Shown: one piece after another, positions 22,900-56,705 of the stretch
Layout: each line of letters opens with the position of its first letter
Numbering within the stretch: the stretch's first letter is position 1
DNA from: Lepiota brunneoincarnata
Lineage: Eukaryota; Basidiomycota; Agaricomycetes; Agaricales; Agaricaceae
NCBI GenBank assembly: GCA_023014365.1
Contig: JAEBUN010000003.1
Coordinates: 1 to 64,000, forward strand
Length of the DNA: 64,000 bases
Reading direction: 5' to 3'
The notes under the pieces: model-generated
What the model was told of the DNA's origin: nothing
Database searches by the model: none
What the model saw: the letters and a program-made list of their open reading frames with translations, nothing else
Translations under genes and position numbers: made by a program

Positions 22900-24102
22900 A
22901 GCTAGCTTGGGTATCAGTAGCTTTATATGTCTTCTATGGCTCAAGTTTAAGGATAAACAAGAAATTTATTGAAAGTGCAATTTGCATGAGGTGTATGTAG
23001 GGCTTAGATGGTTACATGGCAATAGGTTGTGTGTCAAGTAGATGGGCTGATTGTGAGATTGCGAGATTGATGATTGGGTATTTGCACAGACATATAGCTC
23101 AAGACAATATATATATAAATTTGGGACCACTAGGACCCAGTATAGAAAAACTATAAGCACTTGTAAAGGTATGTCGAGGGTATGTACACATCTGGGACCC
23201 AGTATAGAAAAACTGGGATCCAGCAGGTGCTCAGACCACTGCCTAAATACAATGAGAATGTATTATGAACAGTCTGGATCGAGAGGAACAAGAACAATTA
23301 TTTGACTTTACAAGATGGGTACAGGAGACCACAGACCAGTTGCAAGCACAGGAATACAAAGATGAAGAAGGGGAATACTACAATGCCATGCAGGACTTGG
23401 CAAGAGAAGCAGGAATGGAGATAACTCTGGAGGATATTCTGGAATACCCCAAGGATGAAGAAGATAGCCATGGATCAACTGATCCAACCTCCAATATGGA
23501 TTGAAGCACCAAGCGAGTGGAGACTGAGAATGGAGGAGAATCCATGGAGATAGAATTGGGAGAAGAGAATTATGAGTCAGAGGAAAGTGATGGAACATTG
23601 CACAGCAGTGGAATGGAGAACAAGGATACTGACTCATTGTAATATATAAATAACAGTAGGATGCCATCAGCTAGGATGCACATCATGGTCAAGACTGTGC
23701 AAGACAAGTAGAACAGCCCAATATCCTATAACGAGTATATAGTATCTCATAGGTATATAAGGCCTGTACAAGTAGAGATTAAAGCCTTAAGCTTTAATCT
23801 TGTTAACAGCAGGTTGTTAACCCTCTCTGCCTTAACTTGGCGTGTTCCCTCATTATCTCATTGAGTGTGATCCACTAAGCTCTGCAAGGCCAACCATCTT
23901 GGACACCTTGTAGAGTGATTGAAGGCCGTCTCCAGTTATCCTCAGATACAGGAGGAGCACAGATCATAACAGAATGTGTACAACTATTTACTAAGTAATG
24001 TAGCTCAATCGTCATTGCTAGCAGGAATATAAAAGAGTCCATAATAAAATAGCCAGGAAAAGAATGAAGGGACATTGAGCTGGACAGCTCGGCACTTTGA
24101 CA
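22900..24102 (-). mobile_element. Ty1/copia 3' LTR, interrupted
   Basis: On the minus strand the LTR begins TGTCAAAGTGCC at 24102, directly after a purine-rich GAGTGGGAG tract that follows the end of the copia pol gene. That is the expected pol-PPT-LTR order. It is cut by the solo LTR at 23261-23971. The remaining part has a TATATATATA stretch near 23110, a CAATAAA near 22965 and a repeated GGACCCAGTATAGAAAAACT word (about 23132 and 23193). The outer end of the LTR is not defined; the left coordinate is approximate. Confidence 0.6.
23261..23971 (+). mobile_element. Solo LTR of chromovirus family A
   Basis: A single LTR of 711 bp in plus orientation, flanked by the 5-bp duplication GAATG (23256-23260 and 23972-23976). 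It starts TATTATGAACAG, where intact family members read TGTTATGAACAG, and ends GATCATAACA. CpG sites are largely converted, so it is an old copy. The U3-embedded acidic ORF opens at 23265 but is cut by a stop after 79 residues. The solo state implies recombination between the two LTRs of a former full element. Confidence 0.93.
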
Positions 24103-24171
24103 CTCCCACTCAGTGAGATGTCAGTTAGGAGGCAATATGCTGAGTTGAGTGTGGAACTTGGCAAAGGCCTC
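24103..24171 (-). pseudogene. Copia pol C-terminal tail, split from 55275-56497
   Basis: On the minus strand this short stretch completes the copia RNase H end: a frame from FAKFHTQLSILPPN to a stop near 24128. It continues the sequence DIFTKALPWEA that ends at the other side of element A1, 31 kb away. The 5-bp GCCTC at 24167-24171 is repeated at 55275-55279, which proves that the two pieces were joined before A1 inserted. Confidence 0.9.
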
Positions 24172-24881
24172 TGTTATGATCCGTGCTCCTCCTGTATCTG
24201 AGGGTAACTGGAGATGGCCTTCAATCACTCTACAAGGTGTCCAAGACAGTTGGCCTTGCAGAGCTTAGTGGATCACACTCAATGAGATAATGAGGGAACA
24301 CGCCAAGTTAAGGCAGAGAGGGTTAACGACCACTGTTAACAAGATTAAAGCTTAAGGCTTTAATCTCTACTTGTACAGGCCTTATATACCTATGAGATAC
24401 TATATACTCGTTATAGGATATTGGGCTGTTCTACTTGTCTTGCACAGTCTTGACCATGATGTGCATCCTAGCTGATGGCATCCTACTGTTATTTATATAT
24501 TACAATGAGTCAGTATCCTTGTTCTCCATTCCACTGCTGTGCAATGTTCCATCACTTTCCTCTGACTCATAATTCTCTTCTCCCAATTCTATCTCCATGG
24601 ATTCTCCTCCATTCTCAGTCTCCACTCTCTTGGTGCTTCAATCCATATTGGAGGTTGGATCAGTTGATCCATGGCTATCTTCTTCATCCTTGGGGTATTC
24701 CAGAATATCCTCCAGAGTTATCTCCATTCCTGCTTCTCTTGCCAAGTCCTGCATGGTGTTGTAGTATTCCCCTTCTTCATCTTTGTATTCCTGTGCTTGC
24801 AACTGGTCTGTGGTCTCCTGTACCCATCTTGTAAAGTTGAATAATTGTTCTTGTTCCTCTTGATCCAGACTGTTCATAACA
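24172..24881 (-). repeat. A1 3' LTR (710 bp)
   Basis: Plus-strand ends are TGTTATGATC..TTCATAACA. Inside the element it is followed by TTATCCCCC, the complement of a polypurine tract. It has an extra G in that tract compared with A2. The U3 ORF is present but its C-terminal half is cut by a stop. It differs from the 5' LTR by many changes and by an 18-bp length difference near 24447, consistent with great age. Confidence 0.92.
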
Positions 24882-26349
24882 TTATCCCCCTTTGTAAGGT
24901 CTGATGTCCTCATCAGACATATCCTCAGTATAATCTGACAGAATCTCCTGTGATGTTTGATTTGGTGACAGGGTCCCAGTCGTAGTAGGGGTTGGGTTCT
25001 GGAGAGTCACTTCAATAACTTGGTGGCCTGGGGATGGCGGGTCATGGGTGAGGTTGATGACAAGGGGTTCTCTGGAGCAAGTGGTGACAGGTGTGTTGAA
25101 GGACCAATTCAGAAAGTTGGTGGCTTCTACCAGTAGATGTGGTAGTGGCGTTGGTGGGCAGAATGATGACGGGGGCACCTTGAATTTGGGTGCGGAGGGG
25201 TTTGGCTGAGGTGGGGTGCTGCTTGGTGTCTGCAATAATGTGTCGAATATTGTTGTTTGTGGTTTTGCATGTGAGGGATCGAGCTCTGCTTGGTATTCCT
25301 CATGGGTGGTGATACAGGCCAGGTACCATACTTGTGGGTTGATGCTGGTAAGGGTTTCTTTCACAGTGCTTCTCATAATGGCTAGGGGCAATCTTTTGAT
25401 ATTATTGACATTGGTAGCACAGGCATCCTGCCTTGATATGGCCAAATCGATGGCAGCAATTGCAGCAAGTTCTGGTGTTGGATAAGTGATTGGTGGTAGT
25501 CCCAGTGGGGGCATCATTAGAAGCAGATATAACTTGTATAGCACTTGGTGGTTGGTTATTCATATCCACCATGGGAGGGTTGGAAGGTTGGGTGGTAGTC
25601 CTGATAGGTAGGACAGGGCAGGTCCTGACTTCTGCTTCCATTGCTCAGGCTTGGGATCAGACTCTCAAACAGGAATTTGGTGAGAGTGGTTGATAACATG
25701 GCAGAAATGGTAGTGCAGTCCTGTTCCTCTGTTGTGCTAGAAAGAATAGTGGTGCATAGTTCTTGGAATTCTGTTGTTCAGTCGTAGATGAGGCACATGT
25801 GCTACAGAAGAGCAGTAAATATCTTCCAGCAGGTGTCGACCAGGGGTACCATCGCTGGACTGTGTTTAAGATGGGTTCTGGTAATATGAAAGGGAACTTC
25901 ATGTAAAAGGATGGATTGTATTTCAGGTTGATTGGAGGGAAGGAAGGTATGCCGGATGATATAAGGACTGTTGGTCCTGTCTGGTTGGTTGTTAATGGTA
26001 TCGGTGGCAGGGCCAGTTTGGCTATTTCCTGTGATGTGGTTCACCAGGGATATGATTCTTTCCCAGATGAGAAGGTGTCCATCATTGTCTGGCTCTGGGA
26101 GGTTTGGAGTGGTTGCTCAAGTGTTTGGTGGTTGGGTCATTGGTGGGGCTGTCTAGTTTGTGGGCCCTTTTATATTCTTCAATGATTTCCTTGGTGTTCT
26201 CCAGGTTTGCTTCTGGTTCCCAGGAGTCCTCAGTGGGAAGGTATCCTTTCCATCTGACTGGGAATTGATACTTGTTCTAGAATCTTCTGTAGCGCAGTAT
26301 TGACTCAACCTCGTATTCTTCTTCTCCATTGACAAGGTCAGGAGGCGGT
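24882..26349 (-). pseudogene. A1 accessory ORF region and chromodomain end
   Basis: The minus-strand fragment 25544-24882 matches the accessory ORF of A2 (shared DYTEDMSDEDIRPY near 24900). Around 25400-25440 the relic of the zinc-knuckle frame reads CNCCHRFGHIKAGCLCYQC. From about 26350 to 26160 the sequence matches the chromodomain part of pol (LENTKEIIEE-like, degraded). Several stops and shifts are present. The fragment ends at 26349, where element B is inserted. Confidence 0.85.
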
Positions 26350-27633
26350 GAAAAGGTAGAAACGTTCGTATGTTTTAATATGGATAGTGGGCTTGTTTTC
26401 ACTAAGCTTAGCCGAAATTCGATAAGCTTAAGCTAATACAAGTGGAATGAGATAGATAAGGAACAGTTTCGTCTTTTAGGGTGTTCTGGGGGTGCGTTCT
26501 GACAGCGAAATTCAAGAGAGTAGTGTTTTAGAGGTTAACGAACAGCCGTTGCAGTTATCTTAGCCGTACGGTGCAACAATGAAAGGACAATCCCTGTCAA
26601 TTCAAAGCGCGGGGTCTCTAGTCTCTGGTCTCTGGTCTCTGTCTCTGTCTCTGTCTCTAGCACTCTGGAACTCTAAACTCTGAACTCTGGTCTCTGTCTC
26701 TGTCTCTGGGTTGGTCGACGACCGAAGAATTCACACTTAACGACGCACACTAAATAGCCCTCTGAAACCGTTCTTGATCACGGCTCGCAGACTTGCGTGT
26801 GGAAGCGGGGGTGAGACCTCTTGCTTCTCCACGAACAAGTGCGACCGTATTTATATTGTTTAGATACATACGAGAGATAGTAAATATGAAATAGAAAACA
26901 ATAAGCTTAATTGTTACAGGCACTGTAGAACATTTTGGAAGGTTCGGCAGCATTTCTACCTTGCCCTGGGTTATGGGTTTTTCTCTGATTAACGAATGGC
27001 AATCCAGCCAGACGTGTTTCGTGCTCGTCTGCATTATTCTGCGTCCACGCGAGCGCGTTAAGACTCCGGATCAATTATGATCGGAATGTATAGCGGATGG
27101 ACAGTCCCTTGATCCGTTGTAATTAATCTCAGTTAAGCAATAGGCCGAGGTGCCGGGACCCACAAAGCACTCGTTAATTAGGAGTCTTTGATATTTCTAG
27201 GGTTTTGGGCATCGGGTGTCGCCTCCCGAACGTTGAACGTTCCGTTCCGTGGTCCGGTCATCATTATTGGGCTCGCTTTCGACGTAATACTCCTGCGACA
27301 GCCGCTAGGTACATTCTTTATATTCAAACGCATCCGGGTTCATCAGAAAACTGCTCATAAGGTCCCTTGATGCGACCGGAGTATACTCGATAGACTATGT
27401 AGAGTCCTGAATCCCTCTGGAAAGCGTTCCGACAGTTTGGTTCACTAAGCTTAGTGATAATGAACTGGTTTGAACACTTCCAAGGCTCGAATATCCTCAA
27501 TTCGGTCGAACTGGCTACTACGGGACATAGTACCAATCCTCTATAGAGTTCTTTAATGATATAGCCAATGATTCTATGTAGAGAATCATTCCGGAGTACA
27601 GAATTCATGTATAGACGTGAAATCGGCGTATCA
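26350..27633 (-). repeat. Element B 3' LTR (1284 bp)
   Basis: It starts TGAAAAGG and ends GGCGTATCA on the plus strand. It contains four TAAGCTTA palindromes (26403, 26423, 26902, 27446) and a cluster of TCTCTGTC/TCTCTGGT simple repeats at about 26615-26710. It is almost identical to 38950-40235. Confidence 0.95.
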
Positions 27634-27644
27634 TCTCCCCCTAA
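27634..27644 (-). promoter_or_regulatory. Element B polypurine tract
   Basis: On the minus strand TTAGGGGGAGA lies directly against the 3' LTR. This is the expected primer site for second-strand DNA synthesis and fixes the element's orientation. Confidence 0.85.
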
Positions 27645-27958
27645 CCAATTGCTGACTGTCCTCAGTCATTATCTCCTTCAAATTCGCAGTATCTGAGTCT
27701 CTCTGACGCGCTCTATGGTCTAGAACGTTCACCAGCTTCGAGGGTAGCGCACTTTCGCTAAGCTTATTCCAAATGATGTCAGGTCACCGAGTTTAAATGT
27801 ATAGATCAACTTCTTGTTGCTATAGCTTAAATTTTTATCTCTTTATTGGGTCTTTTAAATGTCCCAAGGTCTCGTTTCCTCTCTTTCGTTCTCCCTCTCA
27901 CTCTTTATTCGTTTTATCCTGCTCGCAGATCACTCCTTAACGCCCACTTCTATCAACA

Positions 27959-29997
27959 ATGGACAGAAACACGCGCAGCAGCAAACGTGCCCGATACGAA
28001 GTAGACACGGACTCCTCCTCTGGTGAGTAGAGTTCGTGTTACAATCATCTTTGTTTTTCCTCACACTGTCCTCAGACTACGCTGGGCCTAGCACTGCCCC
28101 TCCGGCCTCTCAGGACGCGCCCTCTTCGTCGATTGCGCAACGTAAGTCTCTTTTCTCTCGCTCTCGTTGTTTTCCTCATGCTTTCTTTGTCCTTAGGTCT
28201 CACTATTCGCCTCCCGGCACGTCGCAACCTCCTTCCTCAATGGGAACCACCAGCACCACGTGTTAGGAGAGCTAGAGGAGGGCGAGTGGGACGAGGAGCT
28301 TGCGGAAATTGCCAGGGAGGTGTGGATAGGACCCCTCCCCCACCGTACTTGCCGCCCCGCGAACCAACCCCTCGGCCGGCCACTCCCCTGTCCACTCCTG
28401 TGCCGCGACGCGTCATCTCGATCGCGTCACTGTGCAATCCAACTGACGAGAGTTCTGCCGGATTGTCCGCAGAACTTTCGTTAGGTATCCCTGTCGGCGG
28501 GCCCTCTGGTGGATTATCCACAGAGGCTCCGTCCAGTTCAATGTTGCTGCCCCCTCTCGCCGTCTCTCTGCGCACCCTGGACGGTGAAGGCTCGCTGGTG
28601 CTCCCTCCCCTGGGTATTGCGTCAGGTTCAGAGGTGCCGGGCCCTTCAACAAACCGCCCCTCCTCTCCTGTAGCCTCTTCGGCTACTTCTACGCGTAAGC
28701 TTAAGCCTTTTTCTGCTTATTTCTCCGCTCCTGCTAATAGTGTGCCTCATAGCTCGTATCCCTGCCGCTCTCAAAGGCAAGCAACGTGCACAGTCATCTG
28801 CACCGCCCCCGTCGCCTCTGTTCCTGGCGAGTTCAAATTCGCCATCGCATTCTCCGGTCCCAGAGGTCTCCCAAGAAGACCTCTTCAAAATTTTTAACTG
28901 GTCCTCTACCCTGGTCGAGCGGAACGCATTGGCCTCTCCCAGGTGTCCTACGCCCTCGCTTCCTCACTTGGCTTCTGCTTCAGTCGAGTCTCTCCCAAGT
29001 CCCGCGGAGGCCTCGCCTTCTCCAGATTTGGAGCTCCTCTTGGAGCCTTCACCTGTTCCCCAGGAGCCGGCATTCGTTTTTCAAGACTCATTCTTAGCTT
29101 CTCCAACCCCCGTCCCCTCTCATTTGCCGAGCCCAGTGGTCCCAGACACATCCCAGTCCTTGCCTCCCCAAGCTGGACCTTCAGGGTCGCGTCGCGCGCG
29201 CGTAACCCTACCAAAGAAAAGCTCTAACACGCGCCCAAAGAAATATACTCCCCGGGCGCGCATCCGACGTTCTGAAGCCAAAATAATCCGGGATCATGGA
29301 TACCGGCACCCAGTCCCGCTCTTTTGTGAGGACTTTTCTAGGCTGCTGGCAGCTAGCCAGCTTTCGGTACGTTCTCCAAGTTTTTCTCGTGTTTCCTTAT
29401 TAACTGTTTTGCCCCTTCCCTAGTACGTGCCGCCTCGGTCTCGGTGCACTACTTGCGCCGCTCGTAAGTTGGAGTGCGAGCCTCTGGGTAAGGGTAAGAA
29501 GTGTCGCAGCTGCGACCTGTACAACTACCCCTGTACCTTCGCAGACCATCCGCGAGTCTCGGCTGGCGTTGCGAACGCCCTGGTCACATCCTCACTGACC
29601 AGTGAATACCGTAAGTTTCTCTGTTCACTGTTTTTCCCATTTATTCACTTTTTATTTCCCAGATCTTGCTGCCTTCGCACGTGTTGCGTCCTCCAGCTTG
29701 GTCAGTCTGGAGGCCAATCGTGTTGCCTACGAGGCATCGGCCTTCCACCACCGCCGTGTAATCTACCAGTTCGTCCAGGAGATGCAAGCTACCAGGACGG
29801 CCTTGGACGGTAACGACGTGGCATTCGTGGAGATGGGTATGGCCGAGTCCCTCGAAGACGTCCAGGCGTTCTTCGAGTTTGCTGACAACTTTCCGGGGGT
29901 CCCGACATACGAAGAATTCGAGGAGCTCAAATCGCTCCTCTTCCTCGCTTTCCCGATGACTCAGGATCCGGAGTCTGTCTTGGAGGACTTGAACTAG
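27959..29997 (+). CDS. Zn2Cys6-cluster protein encoded antisense in element B
   Basis: Six exons (27959-28022, 28076-28141, 28197-28694, 28753-29366, 29424-29610, 29663-29997) joined by canonical GT-AG introns of 51-58 nt give an unbroken 587-residue protein. Residues about 1-410 are Ser/Pro-rich and disordered, with a basic patch near 29190-29290 (PKKYTPRARIRRSEAKII). Exon 5 encodes a binuclear zinc cluster with the spacing C-x2-C-x6-C-x8-C-x2-C-x6-C (CTTCAARKLEC .. CRSCDLYNYPC), exactly the fungal Zn2Cys6 DNA-binding pattern. The last about 110 residues are helical and acidic. It lies between pol and the 3' LTR of B, transcribed against gag-pol. A C/T-rich promoter precedes the ATG. The third intron opens with GTAAGCTTA, a copy of the element's repeated palindrome. 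DNA binding is inferred from the motif; target and function are unknown. Confidence 0.85.
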
Positions 29998-30618
29998 TGC
30001 CTGCTTCCCTTTCCTCTCTTGAATGTAATATATCCTCTTGTCCTGTATATAGTTACATTTCGCTTAACGATTCTTGTCTCTTGGTATCTTTCTGAGTTAA
30101 GCTTAAGGCCCTTCTGGAATATCCCAAGCTAAGCTAAGGCTTCCAGCCGCTTATACGCTCATCAGATATTTCTCTGATACTTCTGCTATGTTTATTGACA
30201 TCTCAGCGCGCCACGATTCGACATGTGTAGTGAACCGGTCATCCATTCCGGCTTCATTTACAAGCCCGAACCCGAACCAGCCTGTACACGGGGTTTGACG
30301 CGCCATTTGCGCCACTTGGGGCCCGTCTCCCCCTAGCCAAATTGAAATCGGTGCCCTCACCGTTCCATCCGAATCCCTGTGCACACTGATAACCGCGAGA
30401 CCCTGGCGACCTGTTACCCAATAAGGCAACTGTGGTTCAGCTAGTCTGTCGAAGGCTGGCTACTCAAGATTACAGGTTTCCTAGGCCTCTCAGGTCATAA
30501 GCTTAGGGTGGAGGGTGCTCTTTATCCACTTGTCATGATTCGTCATCACTGCCGACAGCCTTTTCTTATAAAAGCGAGGGAGCGACGTCTCATTCTAGCA
30601 GACACTCTTCGTAAGAAA
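29998..30618 (+). promoter_or_regulatory. Spacer and TATA promoter between antisense genes
   Basis: A T-rich 3' flank of the Zn2Cys6 gene is followed by two TAAGCTTA palindromes (30098 and 30498). A TATAAAAG box lies at 30567-30574, 45-52 bp before the start codon at 30619. No convincing gene lies in the spacer on either strand. Confidence 0.6.
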
Positions 30619-31967
30619 ATGGCTTCTTCAATCCCCAACCTTCAAGTCGAGCTCGACGATCTCATCAGCAACACCAAAGGTCGTCTTCAGCGCCTGCAAA
30701 ACGGTCAAGTCGCTCGTCCCCTCGTCGAGAAGGCTCTCCTCGCATTCGACGCCCCTGGGGTATGTCTATTCTTTTCATGCTTCTCTCGCTGTTCCTCAAT
30801 CATTTCTAGTCTGCTTATATTGAAGCGTTATCGGAGGATAATGAAGCTATCAAGCTTCATGTCAACCAAGACTACGTCTTCCGTATTCGCAAGCTCTACA
30901 AAATTTACCAAAACAACTACCATTCGTCTTATGAGATGCCCGCGATCTATAAGGCGCTCTCTGAATGCTGTAGCCGCATTAATCGCGTCCGCTCTGAAGA
31001 ATCCCACAAAACCCGTACCGAAGAGGCTCAGAACCCGTTGTCCACGACTGGCTCTACTTCCTCCAATGTTGCCGAAGGCTCTGCTGTCCCCAAATGCGTA
31101 AGCTTAGCGTTCTTTTGGCTTCAAATCGTCTTCTCATGCATAAGCTTAGCCTCGCAAGGGTCGCAAGGCCCCTATCTCTGCTGCTGTTGTGGTAGACACC
31201 GATACCGAGCCTGCAGAGAGTATGAATAGTGCCTCCAACTCCCGAGCAACTGGTGCTGACACGGTAATCTAGCTGCTTCTCAACCTATTACATTGGCTGA
31301 GATCATCGCTCGCCTTCAGGACATGATGGTCGACGAGGAGGTCTCTCAAGCTATCGTCGAAGAGGTTCGTGTAGTTCCGCCTTATCGCAAGCGTCGTTTG
31401 TCTACCTCCGACGTGGTGCGCCAGCTCCACTCCCCCCAACCACTGATTCTGACTTCCTCTCTCTCTAGGAGACTGTCAAAAAGTCCTCATCGTCTAAAGG
31501 CTCTGTCCGTCTTCTTCCCTATTGTCAAGTTCCCAATATGAACACTAAACACTGCTGTTATGTCCGGGCTGAACAGGTTCTAGCCAAAGCCAGCGCCAAT
31601 ACTGCCAAACGCGCCCGTACCGAGTCTGCTTCTGATGAGCGCACCTTCGCAGGCTTATCCGGTGGGCAATTTCTCACTTCTGTTCGTTAAGCTTAGCGGT
31701 TCTGACACTTTTCCCGGGCAGCTCGTTTGCTCCAGGAACTCCAAAACCTCCTGTCTCACTCTCGCGACGAGTACGAGTCTGAATCTCGCAGTGACGACGC
31801 TCGGTCTGTCAAATGCGACCTCAATTCGCTCAGCCTGGGACTTCATCGAGGCTATTCCCTCGCTCGAAGCTAACTTAAAGAGGTTCCAATTCCTCATTCA
31901 AGAGCGCATCCGTCTCAAAAGTCTTTTGCGCAACCTCTCCGACTTGGACAAGCCCCTCCCCACTTAA
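30619..31967 (+). CDS. Helical protein of unknown function, antisense in element B
   Basis: I do not recognise this protein. Exons: 30619-30759, 30810-31097, 31150-31263, 31320-31364, from 31469, and further ones to a TAA at 31965. The N-terminus (ELDDLISNTKGRLQRLQNGQ, then IYQNNYHSSYEMPAIYKAL) is predicted helical and may form coiled coils; a basic PRKGRKA follows. The C-terminal part (FIEAIPSLEANLKRFQFLIQ) is again helical. The 52-nt intron 31098-31149 both begins and ends with the palindrome (GTAAGCTTAG..ATAAGCTTAG), and the stop codon is the first triplet of another copy. One extra base near 31826 breaks the last exon. It is convergent with pol, 77 bp away. It could work with the Zn2Cys6 protein, but that is inferred only from proximity. 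Confidence 0.65.
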
Positions 31968-32044
31968 GCTTAACGCTTTTACAGTCCCTAGGATAGTTTT
32001 CCGTCGATAAGTAGATAGTTCTGTCCACAATATCAGGTTTTTTT

Positions 32045-35000
32045 CTATCCTTCCAACTCTTCCGGCTCCCATCTGTCACTAGGCTCATCCTCAGTAGTCT
32101 CCTCCAGGGTCTTCAGTCCCTCTGGCGACAGATCTATCAACTCTTGTAATTCCGGCGGCAACGGTATATGTTTCCTGGCTAAGTAGGGAATTACTCTGAA
32201 CGCCGCCACTTTATTCTGCCATACCGAACCATCCAACTCTGCCAGGATATAAGATCCTCCCTTTGATCTAGATATGACCACCATGGGTCCTAGATACCTG
32301 GGTTTCATCTTCCTGTCTGCTGAGCTCTCTATAGCCGTATTTCTCACTAATACTAAATCTCCCGCGCCGAAGCGATAGTCTTTTATCTTATGCGCTGCTT
32401 GCCGTTCCATTTCCCAAGCCTTGCTAAGCTTAGTGTCTGAAACACGCTGACGCATCTCCTCAACATGCCGAACATGTTTTGCCAAAGCCTGAGCTCGATA
32501 TCCTATCAACTCGGCCGTGGTCAAGTACTTATTCGGTAGCTGCACCAGCCAAGTGGCCTCTTTGACATCCAAAGGTAGCGTCGGGTGCGCTCCGGTTACC
32601 AAAAAGTACGGGGAACACCCCATTCCTTTTCTAATGGTGATCCGATCTGCCCACATAACGTGCGGTAGGTGCCAATACCACTTTTTGACGTCTCCATCTG
32701 TAGCTTTGTACAACATTTGTCGCACATCCCAGTGGGGTCGCTCAATAATCCCGTTCGCTTTGGAATTGTAAGGAGATATCGTTACTCCCTTTATCCCATA
32801 TTTTTCTTCCAGCCATCGAACAGCTTTCTTAAATGGAGAACCGTTGTCCGTGACAATCTTCACTATACAGCCCCATCGGCAAATGATATCTTCGAATAAC
32901 CACTGCGCGATCGAACTGGCGTTCTCTTTTCTCAACGCCTTTGCCTCCATCCAAGATGACAGTCCACACCTTCCATGCACAATATAACTACACCCATTAG
33001 AACTTGGCGTCATATGTAGTGTGTCCACATGTAGCACTTGGAATATCGACGGCGTGGGCGTTACTATTGGCGGCGTCTCGATGATCACCTTTTGCCGTTG
33101 CTGGCATAGATGGCACGATTGCACATACCAAGCTACGTCTCCTTCAACTTCCGGCCACCAGAACCTCTGCGTTATAAGCTTAGTGGTTGCGTATATTCCT
33201 CTGTGCCCTAGGAAGTCGTGGCTGGCTCGCAACATATACATACGTTGCTCCTTATCCACTACTAGCTGATGCTGACCACTAGGACTCGTCCTATACAGCC
33301 TCCCCTCTTTATCCAAGAAGAAATGCTCTACCATATGCTTAAGCTTACGCAGATCTGGCTCATCCAAGCCTTCAGCTGCGCTACTGCCCCCTGTTTTCAG
33401 GTATTCCCTGACTTTGGGTATCCTTTCATCTTGTATTCGCGCTGTATCTGTCCTGCGCGACTCATCATATGTTTCCTCTATCTCGGCCGACTTTTCCTCT
33501 TCGAAACCTGGCACTAGCCTGACATCCGTCATTAAGCTTAGTACTTGTCGATGGTTTTCTGGACAGGCTGGGTCTTCTATAACCCTAAGCTTAGCCTGTT
33601 GTTCATCCAAGTACTCTTCCCGGGCTTGATCCAGCTCATACTCAAAATCATACACATCACGCGCCAGACCCTGGTTGAAGCCAGAGCGACTGTCGATCTC
33701 ATCGCAGAAGGCTTCCAAGGGTAAAGGATCTGCGGCCCCTGGATCTTCTTTGATCAGTTCGAACTCCTCTCCTTCATCCTCGGATCCATCGTCGAAGCGA
33801 CGGGCTGTCTCATCACCGGGATAGTAGCGTCGCCTGGACAGTCCGTCCAGTCCAAAGTTCTTCCCTTCTTTGTGTACTAGCGTGAAGTGGAACGACCTAA
33901 TGAAGTCCACCCAGCGGTTTACTGTGGCGTTCGGGAGCTTCCCTGGGTTGTTTAACATCCCGAAGAGAAACTTCGCATCCGTCTCCACCACTAAGTTTCT
34001 TGATCCCCACAGTAAATATTTCTCTTGTTCCAGCACCATTCTTAAGCCGCATAGCTCTCGCTTGGGCTGAGAGTATCTCTGCTGTCTTTCATCCAATAAT
34101 ATTGACCCAAACTTCACATAATGTATAAGCTTAGCGTCTTCTCCATCTCTCTGATATATGTAGTATCCCACCGCCCTCCATGAGGTATCCACGGCTACTA
34201 CTATGGGTTGTTTACTCGGAAATTCGGGGTTCCTGGTCGGGAAACAGCACTGAATCGCATCTTTCAGCTCCTGCTGCGCTTTCCGTTCGTTTTCTCCCCA
34301 CTCAAACTCTTGCCCTTTTTTAAGCTTTTCGTACAGAGGTGCCGCTATGGCTATGAACTTTGGGATATGATTCCTGCAGCGCGTAGCTGTTCCTAGAAAA
34401 CCCCTTAGCTTGGAGACATTCTCGCAATCCCCCCATCTTAATATCTTCCCAATGGTGTCTGTAGCAGGCAACCGTCCTTTATATGAGCATTCAAAACCCA
34501 CCACGGTGATTTCATCAGCGCAGATAGTCGTCTTGGGCCCAGAGAAGGTCCCTCCTACGTATTTCATCCTCTGTAGAATCCTATTGACGGTCTGCATGTG
34601 TTCCCATACAAATCTTCGGATCCCTGGGTTCTCTTTCAACGTCTCTTCCGTGCCATCTGGCAACTCATATCTAGTTTTCGGCCCTCTGATAGGTACATCA
34701 TCTATGTACGGCATCGTGTATTCTGGTATCTCACTGGCTAGGATCGCTGTTACATCCTCATGGAATATAGGCACTGAGTTGGTCCATCCCATGGGTAATG
34801 TCACTAAGCGTAGCGCTCCAAAAGGCGTCTGGAACGTTGTTAAGTCCCGAGACGACTCAGCTAACAGTCGCTCGTCATAGCCAACATATAGATCCAGAAT
34901 GCCTCCGCAAGCTCTGCCTGCGAAGTGCATCGCCAAATCTTCCGTTGCTGGCGGCAGTCCTGAATGCGCTATCGTCACTCTGTTCAGCGGCTCCAAGCTG

Positions 35001-35800
35001 TGTACCAGTCTCAAACTTTTCCCATCTTTCTTCACCACACAGAACCATCGGGATCTATAGGATGAGTTCGACGGCTCGTATACACCAGCACTAATCTTTC
35101 TCTTTATAATGGCACAGACTTCATCATAGATCACTGGTGGAATCGGAATGGGCTTCTCCACCCACGGAGTATGTTCTACCGTCAGTATCTCGATCAGCGG
35201 GAAGAAGTCTTCCCTAAAACATCCCCTCTCCTCATCTGTCCATGCGAATGCCCTTTCCTGAAGCATCATGACTTGGTGCATCAGCTTTCTTTCTTCTGGC
35301 CACAAGAGATCCCCTGCATGGGCTTCATCCAGCTTAAGCTTGCGCTCCTCCATATATCTGCCTGTCGGGACAAACTCTGGAGGATGCATGCTAAGCTTAG
35401 GCATTTCTGCCAGCGGATCCCCTTTTATTTCTCGTTTTATCCTGAATTTCTCCGGTAAATCACCTAACACTGGCCTCACTTTTAAAGCGACTGGTTTATA
35501 TTTCTTCCCAGCCAGGCATTGTACAATATCTTCGTCATCCCCTTCAGTTTCGAAGACAGTCATTCCCTGACCCTCCGTATCCTGTGCGTTGGCGATGCGC
35601 CCTAGGCACGATAACGCCGTTGCTCTATCTTCCTGTGGGCAGTCCTCATCGCGTATGACTCGGTCAATGAACATTAGCTGTAGCTCGGCCTCTGAGAAGC
35701 TTCCTTTTGCTAAGCTTAGTGTTTGTGCGACGACAGGGCCCTTCTCATCATCATAGTCTATTATACAAGCCACCTCTCCTTGTCCCTCAGTCAACTCATC
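32045..35800 (-). CDS. Element B pol: reverse transcriptase, RNase H, integrase
   Basis: One uninterrupted frame of about 1250 residues. The order RT - RNase H - integrase identifies Ty3/gypsy. RT carries YIDD (around 34700). RNase H shows [22 protein letters not shown] and VVETDAKF. The integrase has an HHCC zinc finger ([19 protein letters not shown]) and the D,D,E triad in [16 protein letters not shown] and [11 protein letters not shown] basic C-terminal segment with RYLGPMVVI follows; no chromodomain is visible. The frame overlaps the end of the protease frame by a few bases in a different phase, so pol needs frameshifting, or one base is wrong near 35795. The intact frame and near-identical LTRs suggest a recently active element. 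Confidence 0.95.
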
Positions 35801-36924
35801 GAGGTTTCTTGAAAATTTTGACTGTTTTCCCTAAGCTTAGGAGGATTACACTCTCCTCGAGCATAAGTTGGTAACACAGCCCGTTCTCTGGTATTTGGGT
35901 CCGTAATAACCAAGGTTTGCTCGCCACTGGCGCTATTCCTGACTTCGCTAGCCGTCATTACATCCAAGGGTCGTCCCAAGAGTACTCGATACGCGGGGTT
36001 ACGAACGATGTGAACTTGCAAATAGATTGTGACTCCCCCGCAGGTAAAGCCTACGTTCTTTGCCAGTCCACAAGTCTTTTCAACCTGCCCATTCGCACTC
36101 TGCAAATTTATCGTAGTATCTGGATCCCAAGAAACTTGACATGCAATCGCCGCTTCCTGACTCATGGAGACGATCTGTGACCCGCTATCTAGCAAGGCCT
36201 CTTCCTGCCGAATCCCATTTATCAGAGTTGGCACTACTCTCAACGGCTCGCATTCTTTCGCAATAAACACTTGCCGTCCCCTGTCTCTTCGAGGAAGTGA
36301 CTCCAAGTACTGCATGATTGGATCCTGCGCTACCCAGGCTTGGGTTGCCGAGCCTTCTCGGAGCACTGTATCATACTTCCGAGTGCCGTCTGCTAGCTCC
36401 GTTATCATGACTTGTACTGGCCCACTATTAATCTCTATATCTTCTGTATCATCGTCCCAGGGCCCTACTCCTGCTATTAAGCTTTGACTCGTGGGTACCC
36501 GTTTTCTCATAATGCGCTCCCTATAAGCGTTCCTGTATATCGGTGACAATGCCAAGAGTTCTCCATGCGATACTGAGGCTTCTCGCTTCAATACCCTGCT
36601 GAGTACTTCCTCCACATCGACACTCCTCTCTATAGGGGCCTGGTGCTTATACGCAGGCTCCTTCTTAGATGGTTCCATCCTTCTGACAGGCAACGGTGGC
36701 ACCTCAACGACCGGGCGCAGTGGTTTCACATTTCTATATGGTAATTCCCCTGCTGCGGCACGCACTGGTTCCTCCGTTGTCTGCCCTATTTCCTCATTTT
36801 CTGATTCTTCTGATCGCTCGGAATCCGACGCGTCCTCAGGAGTCTGTCCTCTGGCAAAGGCGACCTTCTTCTTCAGAGCCGGCTCCTTCCTCGAACCCTT
36901 TAGAAACCCGACTCCGAGTTCCAA
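35791..36924 (-). CDS. Element B aspartic protease region
   Basis: This minus-strand frame contains a retropepsin-like core: the active-site motif [11 protein letters not shown] (around 36185), followed by [10 protein letters not shown] (about 35965), the family's conserved ILG-type element. The N-terminal about 200 residues are charged and probably disordered. The frame starts within the end of gag and ends at TGA 35791, overlapping pol. It is the maturation protease that would process Gag-Pol. Confidence 0.88.
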
Positions 36925-38935
36925 GTCTTCGCGCCACTCCTGGTGTCCAAATACTGGCTTGCCGAGGGCGTACCATCCGTCAGACCACTAAGCTTAGCCT
37001 GTATCTGGGCCAATTGCTTGGCCAAAGACTGTATCTCGACGTTATCATCCTTTCTTGTCATAAGCTTAACCTTTGGGGTACTCCCAGCGTGGATGGCAGC
37101 TGTCTCCAACATTTCCATGCGCTGCTTCAGACGGCGGATTTCTTCTTCCGCTGGCGACCTTTGGTTTTCTGACCTCGGGAACGCTCTCTGTGCAAACACT
37201 GCTGACGTTGGTACTTGCGGTAACTCAGGCTCAACCTCCGGCAGTTCTGGTATCTGAACGAAGAGTTGTCCCTTTGTCGCATAGTACTTTGCCACTTTCT
37301 CTTTAATAGGCCCTTCTCCTCGAGGGATACTCGAGCCGTCTCCCATATATATTTTGTTCCCTTCGACTCTAATTCGGCCGGCTTGTTTATCCGCCTCCAT
37401 GTCCGGGCAGAATAACCAACTATGCCCTAATAACCAGCAGTAGAAACACTTGCGATCGGAAAGCGACCCTGCCGGCCCACTTCCGGTATTCCTCTGGGCG
37501 TGATTATAACCGGCATGATTATGTCCGTCTTTCGCCGAGCTCTCTAAATATGTTTTTAAGGTATGCCCCTGGATATTCATGAGGTCCTTAAGCTCAGCGA
37601 GGCCACCTGCCATCTGCGAGACTTCATCCTGAAATTTCTGCTTTAAGCTTTGCAGTTCTCGCTTTACCACCGGGTCATAAGTCCCTGTTCCGGACGTCGC
37701 AGGTGGATGGCTCATCGATGCCGAGTTTACCGGCCTCAAATCCTGATGAAGGGATCGCATAAGTGTTTTGCCAATCGAAATTTCGACAGCTTTATCCACG
37801 ACAATCCTCCAATCATAGGGGTCCTCTTCGCGTAAATCCTTCGCAGTCAGTGCCGACCCATCACTTGCGGTTCTACGCGCCCCGGTGATCGCTAATCTCG
37901 CATTGAGCACATCCTGGAACACCGAGTCCAGTGCGCTCGTAAATAACTCGACTAGCTCTCAGGTTCGAGACTACCGCCGGCGACTTTAGACACTTCTCTG
38001 CTTCGAGAATGAATCGCCTTTTAAAGTCCAAGACTTTATGCTCCTCATTCATCGCAATGCCTCTACTCTCTGCGCAGAGTTCCCTCAAGCGTCGCACTGA
38101 GCCCTGCTCAGGCTGCCACAGCCTCGGGATACTCTTTCTTTAATCTCTCTACGAAGCCTGTCCAGCTTCCTGCTAAGAACTCCGCAAAACTCATCCACTC
38201 TTCACGGATATCCTGGTCCACATATGACACCGCCCAATTTATTCTTTCTGCCTCGTCCGTCGTCTTCGTTATCGTGAAGAGACGTTCCAGCGTCCAGAGA
38301 TAATTTCTCAATGTCTGTGGTTTTGATGCATCCCACCTGGGAGCATTATTGCTAAAGGGAATTGGCATACGCTCGTGTCCCATTTTTCTAGCTGTAGTCG
38401 TCGTCGACGGCGTAGTTTGGTTTGTCTGTACAGTCGGAGTTGACTGTGATATCTGTGGTACCGTGGGGGCACCAAAAGGGTTCGTATGAAACGAGTTTTG
38501 GTTTGGTAACGCTAAGCTTAGCGTAGGAACGGTCTGACCGTCCTGGTTTTCGGTGTGCAGAATATGCGCTATGTTGCGAGCTGAGGCTGGCAGCCTTATA
38601 GTAATTCTGGGAGCAGTAGAGATCGGCGGTACGGCTTCTCTCAAAGCTGCAACTGCTGAACCACTCGCTGTGTTCGCAGCTAAAGCGCTAACGGGATCTT
38701 TTCGCTTTTGAGAGGTACTAGCGGCGATGAGGCCTTCAGAACCTTCTGGACGATTGGAGTTCCGAGTAGTTCTCTGTTTTGGTGGGTCGACCTTCCTGAG
38801 ACTGCTCTCGAAGGACGTTTTGGGTGACTTTACGGTCTTTGCTTGAACCTTTTTCTGCTTCGCAGGTGAAAGGCGGGCCAGTGTCCAAGTCTTTTGGTGT
38901 TTTGTCTCGTGAAATTCAACTGAAAACCCCCCTCA
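36900..38935 (-). CDS. Element B gag (capsid and zinc-knuckle nucleocapsid)
   Basis: The frame is open from about 38935 to 38110, then resumes after one extra base near 38111 and a second near 37957. With those removed it runs to 36900. The middle part (YLWTLERLFTITKTTDEAER, then SWTGFVERLKKEYPE) is a retrotransposon capsid-like helical domain. A single CCHC knuckle, CFYCWLLGHSWLFC (about 37440), has perfect C-x2-C-x4-H-x4-C spacing for RNA binding. No ATG lies in frame in the first about 550 bases after the upstream stop, so initiation may involve splicing or a non-AUG codon. Its frame breaks contrast with the clean pol next door. Confidence 0.8.
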
Positions 38936-38947
38936 CGGTGGGCTCCA
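38931..38947 (-). promoter_or_regulatory. Element B primer-binding site
   Basis: Two bases inside the 5' LTR the minus strand reads TGGAGCCCACCGTGAGG. A TGG start at this position is what a tRNA 3' CCA end would pair with. The tRNA cannot be named without a search. This contrasts with family A, whose site does not start TGG. Confidence 0.7.
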
Positions 38948-38949
38948 GA

Positions 38950-40235
38950 TGAAAAGGTAGAAACGTTCGTATGTTTTAATATGGATAGTGGGCTTGTTTT
39001 CACTAAGCTTAGCCGAAATTCGATAAGCTTAAGCTAATACAAGTGGAATGAGATAGATAAGGAACAGTTTCGTCTTTTAGGGTGTTCTGGGGGTGCGTTC
39101 TGACAGCGAAATTCAAGAGAGTAGTGTTTTAGAGGTTAACGAACAGCCGTTGAAGTTATCTTAGCCGTACGGTGCAACAATGAAAGGACAATCCCTGTCA
39201 ATTCAAAGCGCGGGGTCTCTAGTCTCTGGTCTCTGGTCTCTGTCTCTGTCTCTGTCTCTAGCACTCTGGAACTCTAAACTCTGAACTCTGGTCTCTGTCT
39301 CTGTCTCTGGGTTGGTCGACGACCGAAGAATTCACACTTAACGACGCACACTAAATAGCCCTCTGAAACCGTTCTTGATCACGGCTCGCAGACTTGCGTG
39401 TGGAAGCGGGGGTGAGACCTCTTGCTTCTCCACGAACAAGTGCGACCGTATTTATATTGTTTAGATACATACGAGAGATAGTAAATATGAAATAGAAAAC
39501 AATAAGCTTAATTGTTACAGGCACTGTAGAACATTTTGGAAGGTTCGGCAGCATTTCTACCTTGCCCTGGGTTATGGGTTTTTCTCTGATTAACGAATGG
39601 CAATCCAGCCAGACGTGTTTCGTGCTCGTCTGCATTATTCTGCGTCCACGCGAGCGCGTTAAGACTCCGGATCAATTATGATCGGAATGTATAGCGGATG
39701 GACAGTCCCTTGATCCGTTGTAATTAATCTCAGTTAAGCAATAGGCCGAGGTGCCGGGACCCACAAAGCACTCGTTAATTAGGAGTCTTTGATATTTCTA
39801 GGGTTTTGGGCATCGGGTGTCGCCTCCCGAACGTTGAACGTTCCGTTCCGTGGTCCGGTCATCATTATTGGGCTCGCTTTCGACGTAATACTCCTGCGAC
39901 AGCCGCTAGGTACATTCTTTATATTCAAACGCATCCGGGTTCATCAGAAAACTGCTCAGTAAGGTCCCTTGATGCGACCGGAGTATACTCGATAGACTAT
40001 GTAGAGTCCTGAATCCCTCTGGAAAGCGTTCCGACAGTTTGGTTCACTAAGCTTAGTGATAATGAACTGGTTTGAACACTTCCAAGGCTCGAATATCCTC
40101 AATTCGGTCGAACTGGCTACTACGGGACATAGTACCAATCCTCTATAGAGTTCTTTAATGATATAGCCAATGATTCTATGTAGAGAATCGTTCCGGAGTA
40201 CGGAATTCATGTATAGACGTGAAATCGGCGTATCA
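38950..40235 (-). repeat. Element B 5' LTR (1286 bp)
   Basis: Near-identical to 26350-27633. Visible differences include C/A near 39153, an extra base near 39958 and two G/A changes near 40190-40201. It contains the same four TAAGCTTA palindromes (39004, 39024, 39503, 40048). Confidence 0.95.
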
Positions 40236-41037
40236 GCGGGGCTGTGTTGTATTCCCTATGTGTGTCATTCTCTTCTGCAGGCATTAGGAGGCTCGCATGA
40301 AACTTGTTGTGGATCTTCCATTTGATGGGTAATTTTAGCTCATAAGTAACAGGTCTGAGTTTTCTTGTTATGGTGAAGGGACCTTCTTGGCGTTGGGCCA
40401 GTTTCTTTGAGGTGTACTGAATTGGGAGGTTGTGGTTGTCTAGCCAAACCTTTTGTCCAACTTTTAGATTGATATCTGGCCAGTTATATCTTGCAGCCAT
40501 TTTTAGTCTGGCTTGTTCATGCACAGCTTGAGCTTCTTGGTGTATCTTGGCAAGGTATTTAAACTTCTCTCCTATTGCTGGAATGTTTGTTGGCTCCTCA
40601 GAGGTCGGAAATCCTTTGGGGGTTGATCCATAGAGGAGTTCAAATGGGGTATGTTGGCATTCAGCATGTGTCTTTGAGTTGTGAACATATTCTAGGAGTG
40701 GAAGTGCCTTTACCCATTTGTTTGGGTTTGATGAGCAATAGATGCCAAGGTATAGTTCTATTTCTTGATTGAATCACTCTGTTTGTTCATCTGTCTGCAG
40801 GTGGTAGGCGGTAGAGAGTGCTTGTTCGATTCCAAGTTGTTTGTAGAATTCTTTCATGGATTTGGTGGTGAATCTGGGGTCGCAATCACTGAGAACTTTT
40901 TCAGGAAGGCCAAATCTAGAGAATAGCTGTTTGATAAGAATTTTGGCAATCTTGTCCACGTTGACAGTTTTTGCAGTAGGTTCTAGAATTATCCCCTTTG
41001 TAAGCTGGTTGACCATGACCAGTATAGAATCATGGGG
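40236..41037 (-). pseudogene. A1 integrase and chromodomain-proximal fragment
   Basis: Minus-strand frames here match A2 pol: the integrase core (LVMVNQLTKGIILEPTAKTV, then SDCDPRFTTKSMKEFYKQLG), with a stop after TDEQTE, and the post-core segment (WLDNHNLPIQYTSKKLAQRQ). Relative to A2 most changes are CG to TG or CA. Element B is inserted at its left edge and A2 at its right. Confidence 0.88.
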
Positions 41038-41736
41038 TGTTATGATCCGTGCTCCTTCTGTATCCAAGGATAACTGGAGACGGCCTTCAATCACTCTACA
41101 AGGTGTCCGAGACGGTTGGCCTTATAGAGCTTAGTGGATCGCGCTCAATGAGATAACGAGGGAAGACGCCAAGTTAAGGCAGAGAGGTAAACGACCGCTG
41201 TTAACAAGATTAAAGCTTAGGGCTTTAATCTCTACTTGTACAGGCCTTATATACCTATGAGGTGCTATATACTCGTTATAGGTTACTTGGCTGTTCTACT
41301 GGTCGTGCGCAGTCCTGACCATGATGCACATCCTGGCTGATGGCATCCTAGCGTTATTTATATTACAATGAGTCAGTACTCTCGCTACTGCTGTGCGATG
41401 TTCCATCGCTTTCCTCTGACTCATAATCTCCTTCTCCCGATTGTATCTCCATGGAGTCCTCTCCGTTCTCGCTCTCCATTCTCTCGGTGCTTCCATCCGT
41501 ATCGGAGGTTGGGTCGGTTGATCCACGGTTATCTTCCTCGTCCTCGGGGTATTCCAATATATCCTCCAAGGTTATCTCCATTCCTGCTTCTCTTGCCAGG
41601 TCCTGCATGGCAGTGTAGTATTCCCCTTCCTCGTCTTCGTACTCTTGTGCCCGTAATTGGTCTGTAGTCTCCTGTACCCATCTTGTGAAGTCGAACAATA
41701 GTTCTTGTTCCTCCCAGGTCTGGACTGTTCATAACA
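41038..41736 (-). repeat. A2 3' LTR (699 bp)
   Basis: Ends TGTTATGATC..TCATAACA, with 8-bp inverted termini. Compared with the 5' LTR it has one extra base near 41716 and a G/A change near 41382. The extra base shifts the frame that runs from the accessory ORF into the U3 ORF. Confidence 0.95.
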
Positions 41737-48568: not shown

Positions 48569-48582
48569 AAGCTTTAATCTAA
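48569..48582 (-). promoter_or_regulatory. A2 self-priming-type primer-binding site
   Basis: Directly inside the 5' LTR the minus strand reads TTAGATTAAAGCTT. There is no TGG, so it does not fit a tRNA 3' end. The 12 bases AGATTAAAGCTT are the exact complement of AAGCTTTAATCT in the LTR at 48763-48752, which lies where the transcript should start. A1 keeps the same sequence beside 54584. This is the arrangement of Tf1-type self-primed elements. Confidence 0.75.
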
Positions 48583-49280
48583 TGTTATGATCCGTGCTCC
48601 TTCTGTATCCGAGGATAACTGGAGACGGCCTTCAATCACTCTACAAGGTGTCCGAGACGGTTGGCCTTATAGAGCTTAGTGGATCGCGCTCAATGAGATA
48701 ACGAGGGAAGACGCCAAGTTAAGGCAGAGAGGTAAACGACCGCTGTTAACAAGATTAAAGCTTAGGGCTTTAATCTCTACTTGTACAGGCCTTATATACC
48801 TATGAGGTGCTATATACTCGTTATAGGTTACTTGGCTGTTCTACTGGTCGTGCGCAGTCCTGACCATGATGCACATCCTGGCTGATGGCATCCTAGCGTT
48901 ATTTATATTACAATGAGTCAGTACTCTCACTACTGCTGTGCGATGTTCCATCGCTTTCCTCTGACTCATAATCTCCTTCTCCCGATTGTATCTCCATGGA
49001 GTCCTCTCCGTTCTCGCTCTCCATTCTCTCGGTGCTTCCATCCGTATCGGAGGTTGGGTCGGTTGATCCACGGTTATCTTCCTCGTCCTCGGGGTATTCC
49101 AATATATCCTCCAAGGTTATCTCCATTCCTGCTTCTCTTGCCAGGTCCTGCATGGCAGTGTAGTATTCCCCTTCCTCGTCTTCGTACTCTTGTGCCCGTA
49201 ATTGGTCTGTAGTCTCCTGTACCCATCTTGTGAAGTCGAACAATAGTTCTTGTTCCTCCCGGTCTGGACTGTTCATAACA
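48583..49280 (-). repeat. A2 5' LTR with promoter and hairpin
   Basis: On the minus strand it starts TGTTATGAACAG. The U3 part contains the acidic ORF 49276-48908. A TATATAAGG box is at 48790-48798. About 25-30 nt downstream lies a hairpin with perfect 10-bp arms (48752-48761 and 48767-48776), the probable transcript 5' end. Confidence 0.93.
48908..49276 (-). CDS. U3-embedded acidic ORF (122 residues)
   Basis: The ATG begins at the fifth base of the LTR (TGTT-ATG). The product starts MNSPDREEQELLFDFTRWVQ, continues with MQDLAREAGMEITLEDILEY and ends in a Ser/Glu/Asp-rich tail. The first 75 residues are alike in all family-A LTRs of the window. The frame is intact here, in A3 (50767-50399) and in the A1 5' LTR, and truncated in others. 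In the genomic RNA it would sit at the 3' end within U3, the place of nef or sag in retroviruses, though no sequence relation to those is claimed. It may also be the C-terminus of ORF3b. Function unknown. Confidence 0.65.
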   Translation of the reverse strand: MNSPDREEQELLFDFTRWVQETTDQLRAQEYEDEEGEYYTAMQDLAREAGMEITLEDILEYPEDEEDNRGSTDPTSDTDGSTERMESENGEDSMEIQSGEGDYESEESDGTSHSSSESTDSL

Positions 49281-56497: not shown

Positions 56498-56705
56498 TGT
56501 TATGATCCGTGCTCCTTCTGTATCTGAGGATAACTGGAGACGGCCTTCAATCACTCTATAAGGTGTCCGAGATGGTTGGCCTTATAGAGCTTAGTGGATC
56601 GCGCTCAATGAGATAACGAGGGAAGACGCCAAGTTAAGGCAGAGAGGTAAACGACCGCTGTTAACAAGATTAAAGCTTGAGGCTTTAATCTCTACTTGTA
56701 CAGGC
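56498..56705 (-). mobile_element. Partial family-A LTR cut by element C
   Basis: It starts TGTTATGATCCG within copia RT and matches the A LTR for 208 bp, up to TTGTACAGGC. There element C begins. The rest of this LTR should lie beyond C outside the window. CpGs are mostly kept, so it is a fairly young insertion. Confidence 0.93.

Follow-up and report, generated by a model that had tools for sequence, protein, structure and literature searches.

A palindromic octamer dispersed through a Ty3/Gypsy-like retrotransposon of Lepiota brunneoincarnata seems to be kept by selection and may be read by an element-encoded protein

The VANDAL elements of Arabidopsis are DNA transposons, and their VANC proteins are not known, to our knowledge, as Zn2Cys6 proteins. 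VANC proteins were reported to bind short motifs (YAGTATTAY; AGTTGTCC/AGTTGTAC) that differ between families and that have accumulated as tandem repeats in noncoding DNA (PMC5735166), and VANC proteins were reported to bring about the loss of silent marks (PMC5735166, PMC10398659). A similar concentration of many copies of one short motif in one kind of mobile element was found in this work for element B, which occupies 13.9 kb (26349-40235) of a window of 64,000 bases (the whole stretch analysed, positions 1 to 64,000 of contig JAEBUN010000003.1 of Lepiota brunneoincarnata). The motif, the octamer TAAGCTTA, seems to be a dispersed site that was gained and kept by selection in this long terminal repeat (LTR) retrotransposon lineage. 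As in VANDALs, it is concentrated in its element and rare elsewhere, as far as the partly listed genome positions go. Unlike VANDALs, B is an LTR retrotransposon and its motif is an exact 8-bp palindrome, dispersed, with 12 of the 24 unique sites in coding DNA; and where VANDALs have an element-encoded binder, B has a candidate only, the predicted Zn2Cys6-type product of an open reading frame (ORF) named ORF1.

Repeated palindromes were also reported in the plant Sireviruses (Ty1/copia), with 8-32 copies per element that cluster in the LTR and the linker preceding ENV, a few lying where ENV begins, and with CGG-CCG in all palindrome types but one (PMC2829016). Element B likewise has several copies in the LTR and in the internal region; unlike in the Sireviruses, its sites also run through gag-pol, the octamer is exact and CpG-free and it accompanies an antisense Zn2Cys6-type gene. 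Moreover, B is neither Ty1/copia nor plant-hosted, a host NACHT-type protein in the window having its nearest proteins in Leucocoprinus, Leucoagaricus and Macrolepiota (Agaricaceae; one gene). An extra gene antisense to gag-pol, placed between pol and the 3' LTR, was described in the plant elements Grande, RIRE2 and Retand, with some products nuclear (PMC7264820), and the antisense gene brtn of Boty in Botrytis is a fungal case (PMC7264820, PMC8365987). Element B shares the additional antisense gene and differs from all four in the Zn2Cys6-type cluster of ORF1 and in having a second antisense gene, ORF2; the available part of the source mentions no dispersed motif in these elements (PMC7264820). 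Among the titles and abstract starts listed by literature searches, none describes dispersed TAAGCTTA in a fungal element, and the combination of an exact octamer that also runs through coding DNA with an antisense Zn2Cys6-type gene was likewise absent from them.

All 28 copies of TAAGCTTA in the window lie within B (0.67 expected, standard deviation 0.75; at least 28 copies in none of 100 shuffles), and the 28 coordinates given in the preliminary description proved correct throughout (Table 1). The LTRs differ very little from each other, and 4 of the 28 copies belong to the second one; 24 sites are therefore independent, against a second-order Markov expectation of 0.21 for a unit of one LTR and the interior. 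When TAAGCTTA was masked in these 12.6 kb, the most frequent 8-mer reached 6 copies and the next palindromic one, GCTTAAGC, which is able to overlap TAAGCTTA, reached 4, so that no other 8-mer is equally enriched. Variants of TAAGCTTA with one changed interior position are close to background in B, and 48 of the 50 occurrences of TAAGCnTA (both strands counted) are TAAGCTTA itself; the near-misses mentioned earlier are present as three TAAGCTTT and one TAAGCTTG. The spacing of the sites is near random (coefficient of variation 0.84; P 0.24 versus uniform), unlike the tandem repeats of VANDALs. Nucleosome-like or helical spacing was rejected on these values and on a Rayleigh R of 0.26 for 10.5 bp.

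The sequences that flank the sites vary from one site to another, with 0.25-0.35 bits at positions -3 to -1 and, at -1, a preference for C and a scarcity of G. They bear on a possible RNA signal, in which the genomic RNA would dimerise, condense or be packaged with Gag by means of its two dozen self-complementary UAAGCUUA octamers. The motif is identical on both strands and is therefore present in the genomic RNA, the intron sites of the antisense genes included, and retroviral RNAs dimerise through self-complementary loops. However, an extended RNA duplex would favour complementary flanks, and complementarity across the motif was not significant (11 of 24 sites versus 8.27 expected, P 0.12); as known dimerisation signals are also single or few in number and placed close to the 5' end, an RNA role is improbable.

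As stated in the preliminary description, the sites fall in LTRs, introns, spacers and coding DNA. The 24 unique ones are divided among the LTR (4), the LTR-ORF1 spacer (1), an ORF1 intron (1), the ORF1-ORF2 spacer (2), the ORF2 gene (4: a pair at the two ends of one intron, a third in a likely intron and a fourth over the apparent stop) and the gag, protease (PR) and pol frames (12), whereas the ORF1 exons (1,778 bp) contain none. The coding sites use two reading phases, nine in phase 2 (x-K-L-x) and three in phase 1 (L-S-L), and none has the phase in which its TAA would act as a stop. In pol, codon-preserving (synonymous) shuffles gave a mean of 0.069 copies versus the 8 observed, a number that none of 5,000 shuffles reached, so the excess persisted in the codon-keeping comparison that had been proposed; in the other three frames the same shuffles gave 0.026 versus 2, 0.029 versus 1 and 0.008 versus 1 observed. 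Chance, composition and codon usage are rejected as the source of the enrichment. At the pol motif, the residues of B agree with those of homologues in 34% of cells versus 60% at random windows (P 0.004), and residues compatible with TAAGCTTA occur, at the eight pol sites, in 0, 2, 0, 0, 0, 1, 6 and 2 of the 19 homologues aligned (19 of the 120 matches listed). This poor agreement suggests that the sites were probably derived in the B lineage, at positions where the protein can vary; the homologue test does not separate motif-driven residue change from tolerance.

Comparison among copies of B points to upkeep of the sites. Across 30 pol loci, taken from 37 pol matches, and the diverged copy L042, the octamer is intact in 431 of 458 complete cells (94.1%) versus 83.7% for AT-matched, CpG-free 8-mers, gapped cells or mostly gapped columns being set aside here and in the tree counts. 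On a tree of 29 of these 31 rows (L015 and L028, rearranged or gapped, were left out), the pol motif columns showed 1 change in 64 versus 9.1 expected from CpG-free columns of the same codon position (P 0.001). Between-copy conservation, a check asked for at the outset, is clearest in L042, which has 83% identity over aligned DNA and keeps 14 of 15 covered sites versus 308 of 605 matched 8-mers (51%; binomial P 0.0006); here and for a second diverged copy, L041, the controls were AT-matched CpG-free 8-mers. The LTR doublet was found, with up to 3 mismatches, at 569 genome places, and among the first 100 of these, the number listed in each pattern search, 62 were exact and 38 carried a single mismatch. 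All 38 mismatches fall in the 12-base spacer of the doublet and none in its 16 motif bases, the copies being related and non-independent; they represent seven distinct substitutions, three of which are CpG transitions. At site 35711, 98 of the 100 matches listed (of 144) show no difference over 31 bases and the remaining two have theirs outside the motif, a comparison that is hardly informative on the octamer.

Sites have been gained as well, since TAAGCTTG at 35335 of B is TAAGCTTA in L042 and an intron of L041 carries TAAGCTTA where B has none. In alignable DNA, both gains and losses are point substitutions without change of length, which disfavours the insertion of a mobile octamer. Some small palindromes do spread by insertion, but a mutational or copying artefact (micro-insertion, a hitch-hiking repeat or a by-product of codons or composition) is hardly credible for B, given this mode of turnover, the 0.07-0.2 copies that codon shuffles and composition yield and the flanks that differ among sites.

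The genome holds 5,370 copies of TAAGCTTA, the counts for other 8-bp palindromes being 419 for TTAGCTAA, 675 for AATCGATT, 842 for ATTCGAAT, 1,189 for AATGCATT and 194 for TTACGTAA. The exact LTR doublet occurs at 550 places, and 550 LTRs of four sites each, together with more than 100 interiors of about 20, account for most of the 5,370 copies; genomic TAAGCTTA is thus, by this rough inference, mostly B-family sequence. A single copy, in family E, was found in the 96 kb of non-B DNA analysed, which do not sample the genome at random; the motif is rare in them, and the equal density across the host genome that would have spoken against the earlier reading was not seen. A reading in which the sites serve, instead of activation, to attract a factor of the host or of the element for placement in heterochromatin or at centromeres finds a parallel in Agaricus bisporus, where repeats were reported to be heavily methylated and to cluster at putative centromeres (PMC7473861). 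It is decidedly improbable for B, whose LTR doublets on contig C1 span 0.37 to 3.93 Mb, among the matches listed, and form no single block, and sites that recruit silencing would be expected to be lost through selection on the element.

Two related families were compared with B. Family E (L044, L045 and L046; some 12 loci of the 150 matches listed) has a pol 65% identical to that of B, an ORF2-like end, EQERLFLMLRNLSK (by eye), and an ORF1-like stretch of 22% identity (weak match, E 0.008) in which the cluster, read by eye, is changed to C-x2-C-x7-C-x8-C-x2-C-x7-C. Its copies show one TAAGCTTA in 10 kb, none in another 6 kb and one in 4.6 kb of a further copy, the last being apparently the same site as in the 10-kb copy, judged by the distance from the pol start. 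In family C (L043; pol 42%), neither TAAGCTTA nor an ORF1 match was present in the 10 kb read. From B, E and C together, motif and B-type cluster appear to be present together and to be absent or changed together. The earlier suggestion of a motif maintained by the element finds support in this near-absence from related families as well as in the codon-preserving shuffles, the conservation in diverged copies and the doublet mismatches. A candidate second motif in family E, TAGnTAAC, occurs 13 times in L044 versus 1.44 expected, and in L046 GTTAnCTA is kept at 6 of 7 covered sense sites and at 0 of 1 on the opposite strand, versus 0.50 for all and 0.69 for matched 8-mers; two of its pol sites encode parts of V-T-Y and R-L-P-T (by eye), for which reason it was not counted as support. 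The LTR region of one E copy (L044:9106-9410) contains tandem repeats, imperfect and about 130 bp in period, with ACGGGCCCTAG units, and a Tc1/mariner-like transposase ORF (by eye) adjoins another (L045:4279-4977, + strand).

Family E also bears on the possibility that TAAGCTTA is read by a DNA-binding protein of the host, either a transcription factor or a chromatin protein, and that the element multiplied the sites in order to be transcribed, ORF1 having a different role. The four LTR sites, the site 200 bp upstream of the ORF1 start codon and the one 121 bp upstream of that of ORF2 would suit such a factor, and Sirevirus LTR palindromes were reported to match mainly the sites of stress-related factors (PMC2829016). 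However, the 12 unique sites within gag-PR-pol coding DNA exceed promoter needs, and family E, which shares its genome and host factors with B, is nearly without the motif, so that we regard a host reader as rather unlikely.

An exact and sharply defined palindrome that persists at dispersed points of LTRs, introns and coding DNA and is mostly limited to one element lineage is the trace expected of a dedicated dimeric DNA-binding protein, and we infer that a protein binds TAAGCTTA. Zn2Cys6 (Gal4-type) proteins are often dimeric on short half-sites, and their canonical spacing, CX2CX6CX5-12CX2CX6-8C, is satisfied by the cysteines of ORF1, which places the predicted protein in the same cysteine-spacing class as XlnR. 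XlnR was reported to act on GGCTAA-type sites via its Zn2Cys6 motif (PMC6323846), and this makes a CTAA half-site plausible for the fold; unlike XlnR, ORF1 is encoded by a mobile element and its match lies under the Pfam cut-off. Such a trace, together with a plausible reader encoded by B itself and the XlnR precedent, suggests that ORF1 may bind TAAGCTTA. Therefore, we hypothesize that a dimer of the ORF1 protein would bind the octamers of the LTRs, those close to the starts of ORF1 and ORF2 and those along the element body, and that the bound protein would mark B's own copies for activation or for protection from silencing. That TAAGCTTA is the site of an element-dedicated regulator, probably ORF1, serving self-activation or anti-silencing is a proposal that we hold with about even confidence, the pairing of ORF1 with TAAGCTTA being more secure than either outcome. 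The earlier reading of the motif as a protein-binding site or chromatin signal fits both the palindrome and the presence of a Zn2Cys6-type gene predicted in the element. More tentatively, B may possess complete self-recognition, composed of a spliced antisense Zn2Cys6 protein and an octamer that runs through LTRs, introns, spacers and gag-pol code, in which amino-acid changes would be accepted so that the DNA sites persist and the whole element body, instead of noncoding repeats as in VANDALs, is tiled.

Several observations weigh against selection on the sites or against ORF1 as their reader. Over all 120 motif columns of young copies, 17 changes were counted versus 25.9 for base-matched columns (P 0.051), a result that may be due in part to the location of two intron sites in regions that are rearranged in some copies, and site 35392 reads TAAGCTCA in 17 of the 31 aligned copies. 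L041 (79% identity) keeps 6 of 8 sites versus 148 of 350 matched 8-mers (42%), which is not significant alone (P 0.066). The Zn exon of L042 has lost cysteines and L042 is for this reason taken as a relic; both L041 and L042 look like relics. The Pfam Zn_clus match of ORF1 reached 18.9 bits (E 0.0017), under the gathering cut-off of 21, and on the same exon zf-ChsH2 scored better, with 22.6 bits (its own cut-off being 23.2), although this match spans no more than residues 1-17. A sequence search of PDB gave a single match at E 6.3, residues 330-590 of ORF1 had no homologue at E <= 10 in the protein database, and the single-sequence AlphaFold2 model of the Zn exon was poor (predicted local distance difference test, pLDDT, 57) and was not used. 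Furthermore, the apparent link between motif and cluster is drawn from three families only, and a clear motif specific to family E did not emerge. At E <= 10 the genome gave 138 matches to the Zn exon, and for five of these E exceeds 0.001; the surroundings of four of the 138 were examined, and the ORF1-like genes of L039 and L040 are without TAAGCTTA in either 10 kb. These two genes (L039:2101-3640 and L040:2136-3675, both on the + strand) lie outside elements, have a Zn-cluster exon 61-63% identical to that of B and an open C-terminal exon that ends in LDDLN, and lie near a long histidine-kinase-like ORF (by eye). No gag or pol match was present in the 10 kb of L039, and the gene may be either the host source of a capture or an element gene that was domesticated.

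Element B is a Ty3/Gypsy-like LTR retrotransposon, with direct LTRs of 1.29 kb, TG...CA ends and GCGG on both sides as a short target-site duplication. Its gag, protease and pol lie on the minus strand in the order protease, reverse transcriptase, RNase H and integrase (PR-RT-RH-IN; Pfam asp protease, RT_RNaseH and Integrase_H2C2), and the two antisense genes stand between pol and the far LTR. The LTRs are the only direct repeats of at least 40 nt within 25500-41000. The RT-RNase H part of pol has 1,145 homologues; among the 120 matches listed, the species-named relatives are Agaricus bisporus proteins, with 71-75% identity over the searched part, and no relatives were found in viral contigs or in prokaryote genome contigs. 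In the antisense genes, the octamer coincides with splice signals, as one ORF1 intron (28695-28740) and one ORF2 intron (31098-31149) open with GTAAGCTTA and the latter closes with ATAAGCTTAG; likewise, the TAA of the apparent ORF2 stop forms the first bases of TAAGCTTA at 31965. ORF2 gave no significant Pfam match for the part scanned, and the reading of its start region gave E 0.37. Outside B, GATTAAAGC or its complement occurs 16 times in the window (23777-24366, 41208-41230, 48571-50266, 54572-54777 and 56668-56690), 14 of them forming seven inverted pairs 14 bp apart, which are perhaps a terminal palindrome or promoter motif of other LTR elements.

Table 1. Coordinates of the features of element B and of its TAAGCTTA sites in the window
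Feature	Position	Strand	Basis or remarks
3' LTR (relative to gag-pol)	26349..27633	-	repeat search; TG...CA ends; genome copies; 4 TAAGCTTA
5' LTR (relative to gag-pol)	38950..40235	-	repeat search; 4 TAAGCTTA
4-bp GCGG repeat flanking B	26345-26348 and 40236-40239		sequence
ORF1	27959..29999	+	splice reading by eye; 6 exons, 591-residue product; candidate DNA-binding regulator
ORF1 exons	27959-28022, 28076-28141, 28197-28694, 28741-29366, 29424-29610, 29663-29999	+	read by eye
Zn2Cys6-type exon of ORF1	29424..29609	+	C-x2-C-x6-C-x8-C-x2-C-x6-C
ORF2	30619..31967	+	sequence, reading by eye; several introns, partial exon reading
pol (RT-RNase H, integrase)	32048..35794	-	Pfam; 8 TAAGCTTA
Aspartic protease ORF	35794..36924	-	Pfam; 1 TAAGCTTA
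gag-like ORF, CCHC-like knuckle	36903..37922	-	knuckle read by eye; 2 TAAGCTTA
gag-like N-terminal ORF	38111..38644	-	assigned by position; 1 TAAGCTTA
TAAGCTTA	26403..26410		LTR
TAAGCTTA	26423..26430		LTR; doublet with 26403
TAAGCTTA	26902..26909		LTR
TAAGCTTA	27446..27453		LTR; conserved in L041
TAAGCTTA	27759..27766		LTR-ORF1 spacer, 200 bp upstream of ORF1 ATG; conserved in L041
TAAGCTTA	28696..28703		5' end of ORF1 intron (GTAAGC start at 28695)
TAAGCTTA	30098..30105		ORF1-ORF2 spacer
TAAGCTTA	30498..30505		ORF1-ORF2 spacer, 121 bp upstream of ORF2 ATG
TAAGCTTA	31099..31106		5' end of ORF2 intron (GTAAGC start at 31098)
TAAGCTTA	31141..31148		3' end of ORF2 intron that starts at 31098
TAAGCTTA	31688..31695		likely ORF2 intron (by eye)
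TAAGCTTA	31965..31972		over apparent ORF2 stop codon (by eye)
TAAGCTTA	32425..32432		pol, T-K-L-S
TAAGCTTA	33175..33182		pol, T-K-L-I
TAAGCTTA	33340..33347		pol, R-K-L-K
TAAGCTTA	33533..33540		pol, L-S-L
TAAGCTTA	33586..33593		pol, A-K-L-R
TAAGCTTA	34126..34133		pol, A-K-L-I
TAAGCTTA	35392..35399		pol, P-K-L-S
TAAGCTTA	35711..35718		pol, L-S-L
TAAGCTTA	35832..35839		protease ORF, P-K-L-R
TAAGCTTA	36989..36996		gag-like ORF, A-K-L-S
TAAGCTTA	37061..37068		gag-like ORF, V-K-L-M
TAAGCTTA	38513..38520		gag-like N-terminal ORF, L-S-L
TAAGCTTA	39004..39011		second LTR
TAAGCTTA	39024..39031		second LTR; doublet with 39004
TAAGCTTA	39503..39510		second LTR
TAAGCTTA	40048..40055		second LTR

In element B, a DNA site appears to be under selection inside the protein code of a transposable element, and the case is unusually clean: the element itself supplies a candidate reader, its genome contains a sister family nearly without the motif, and the LTR copies, numbering in the hundreds, allow statistics. 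Should ORF1 bind TAAGCTTA, B would provide a simple system, consisting of an 8-bp site and a Zn2Cys6 protein, in which to study escape from silencing, and sequence-specific self-recognition of the VANDAL kind would have arisen separately in a fungal retrotransposon. If the proposed function is true, B would be a fungal retroelement counterpart, independently evolved, of the anti-silencing of VANDALs by VANC.

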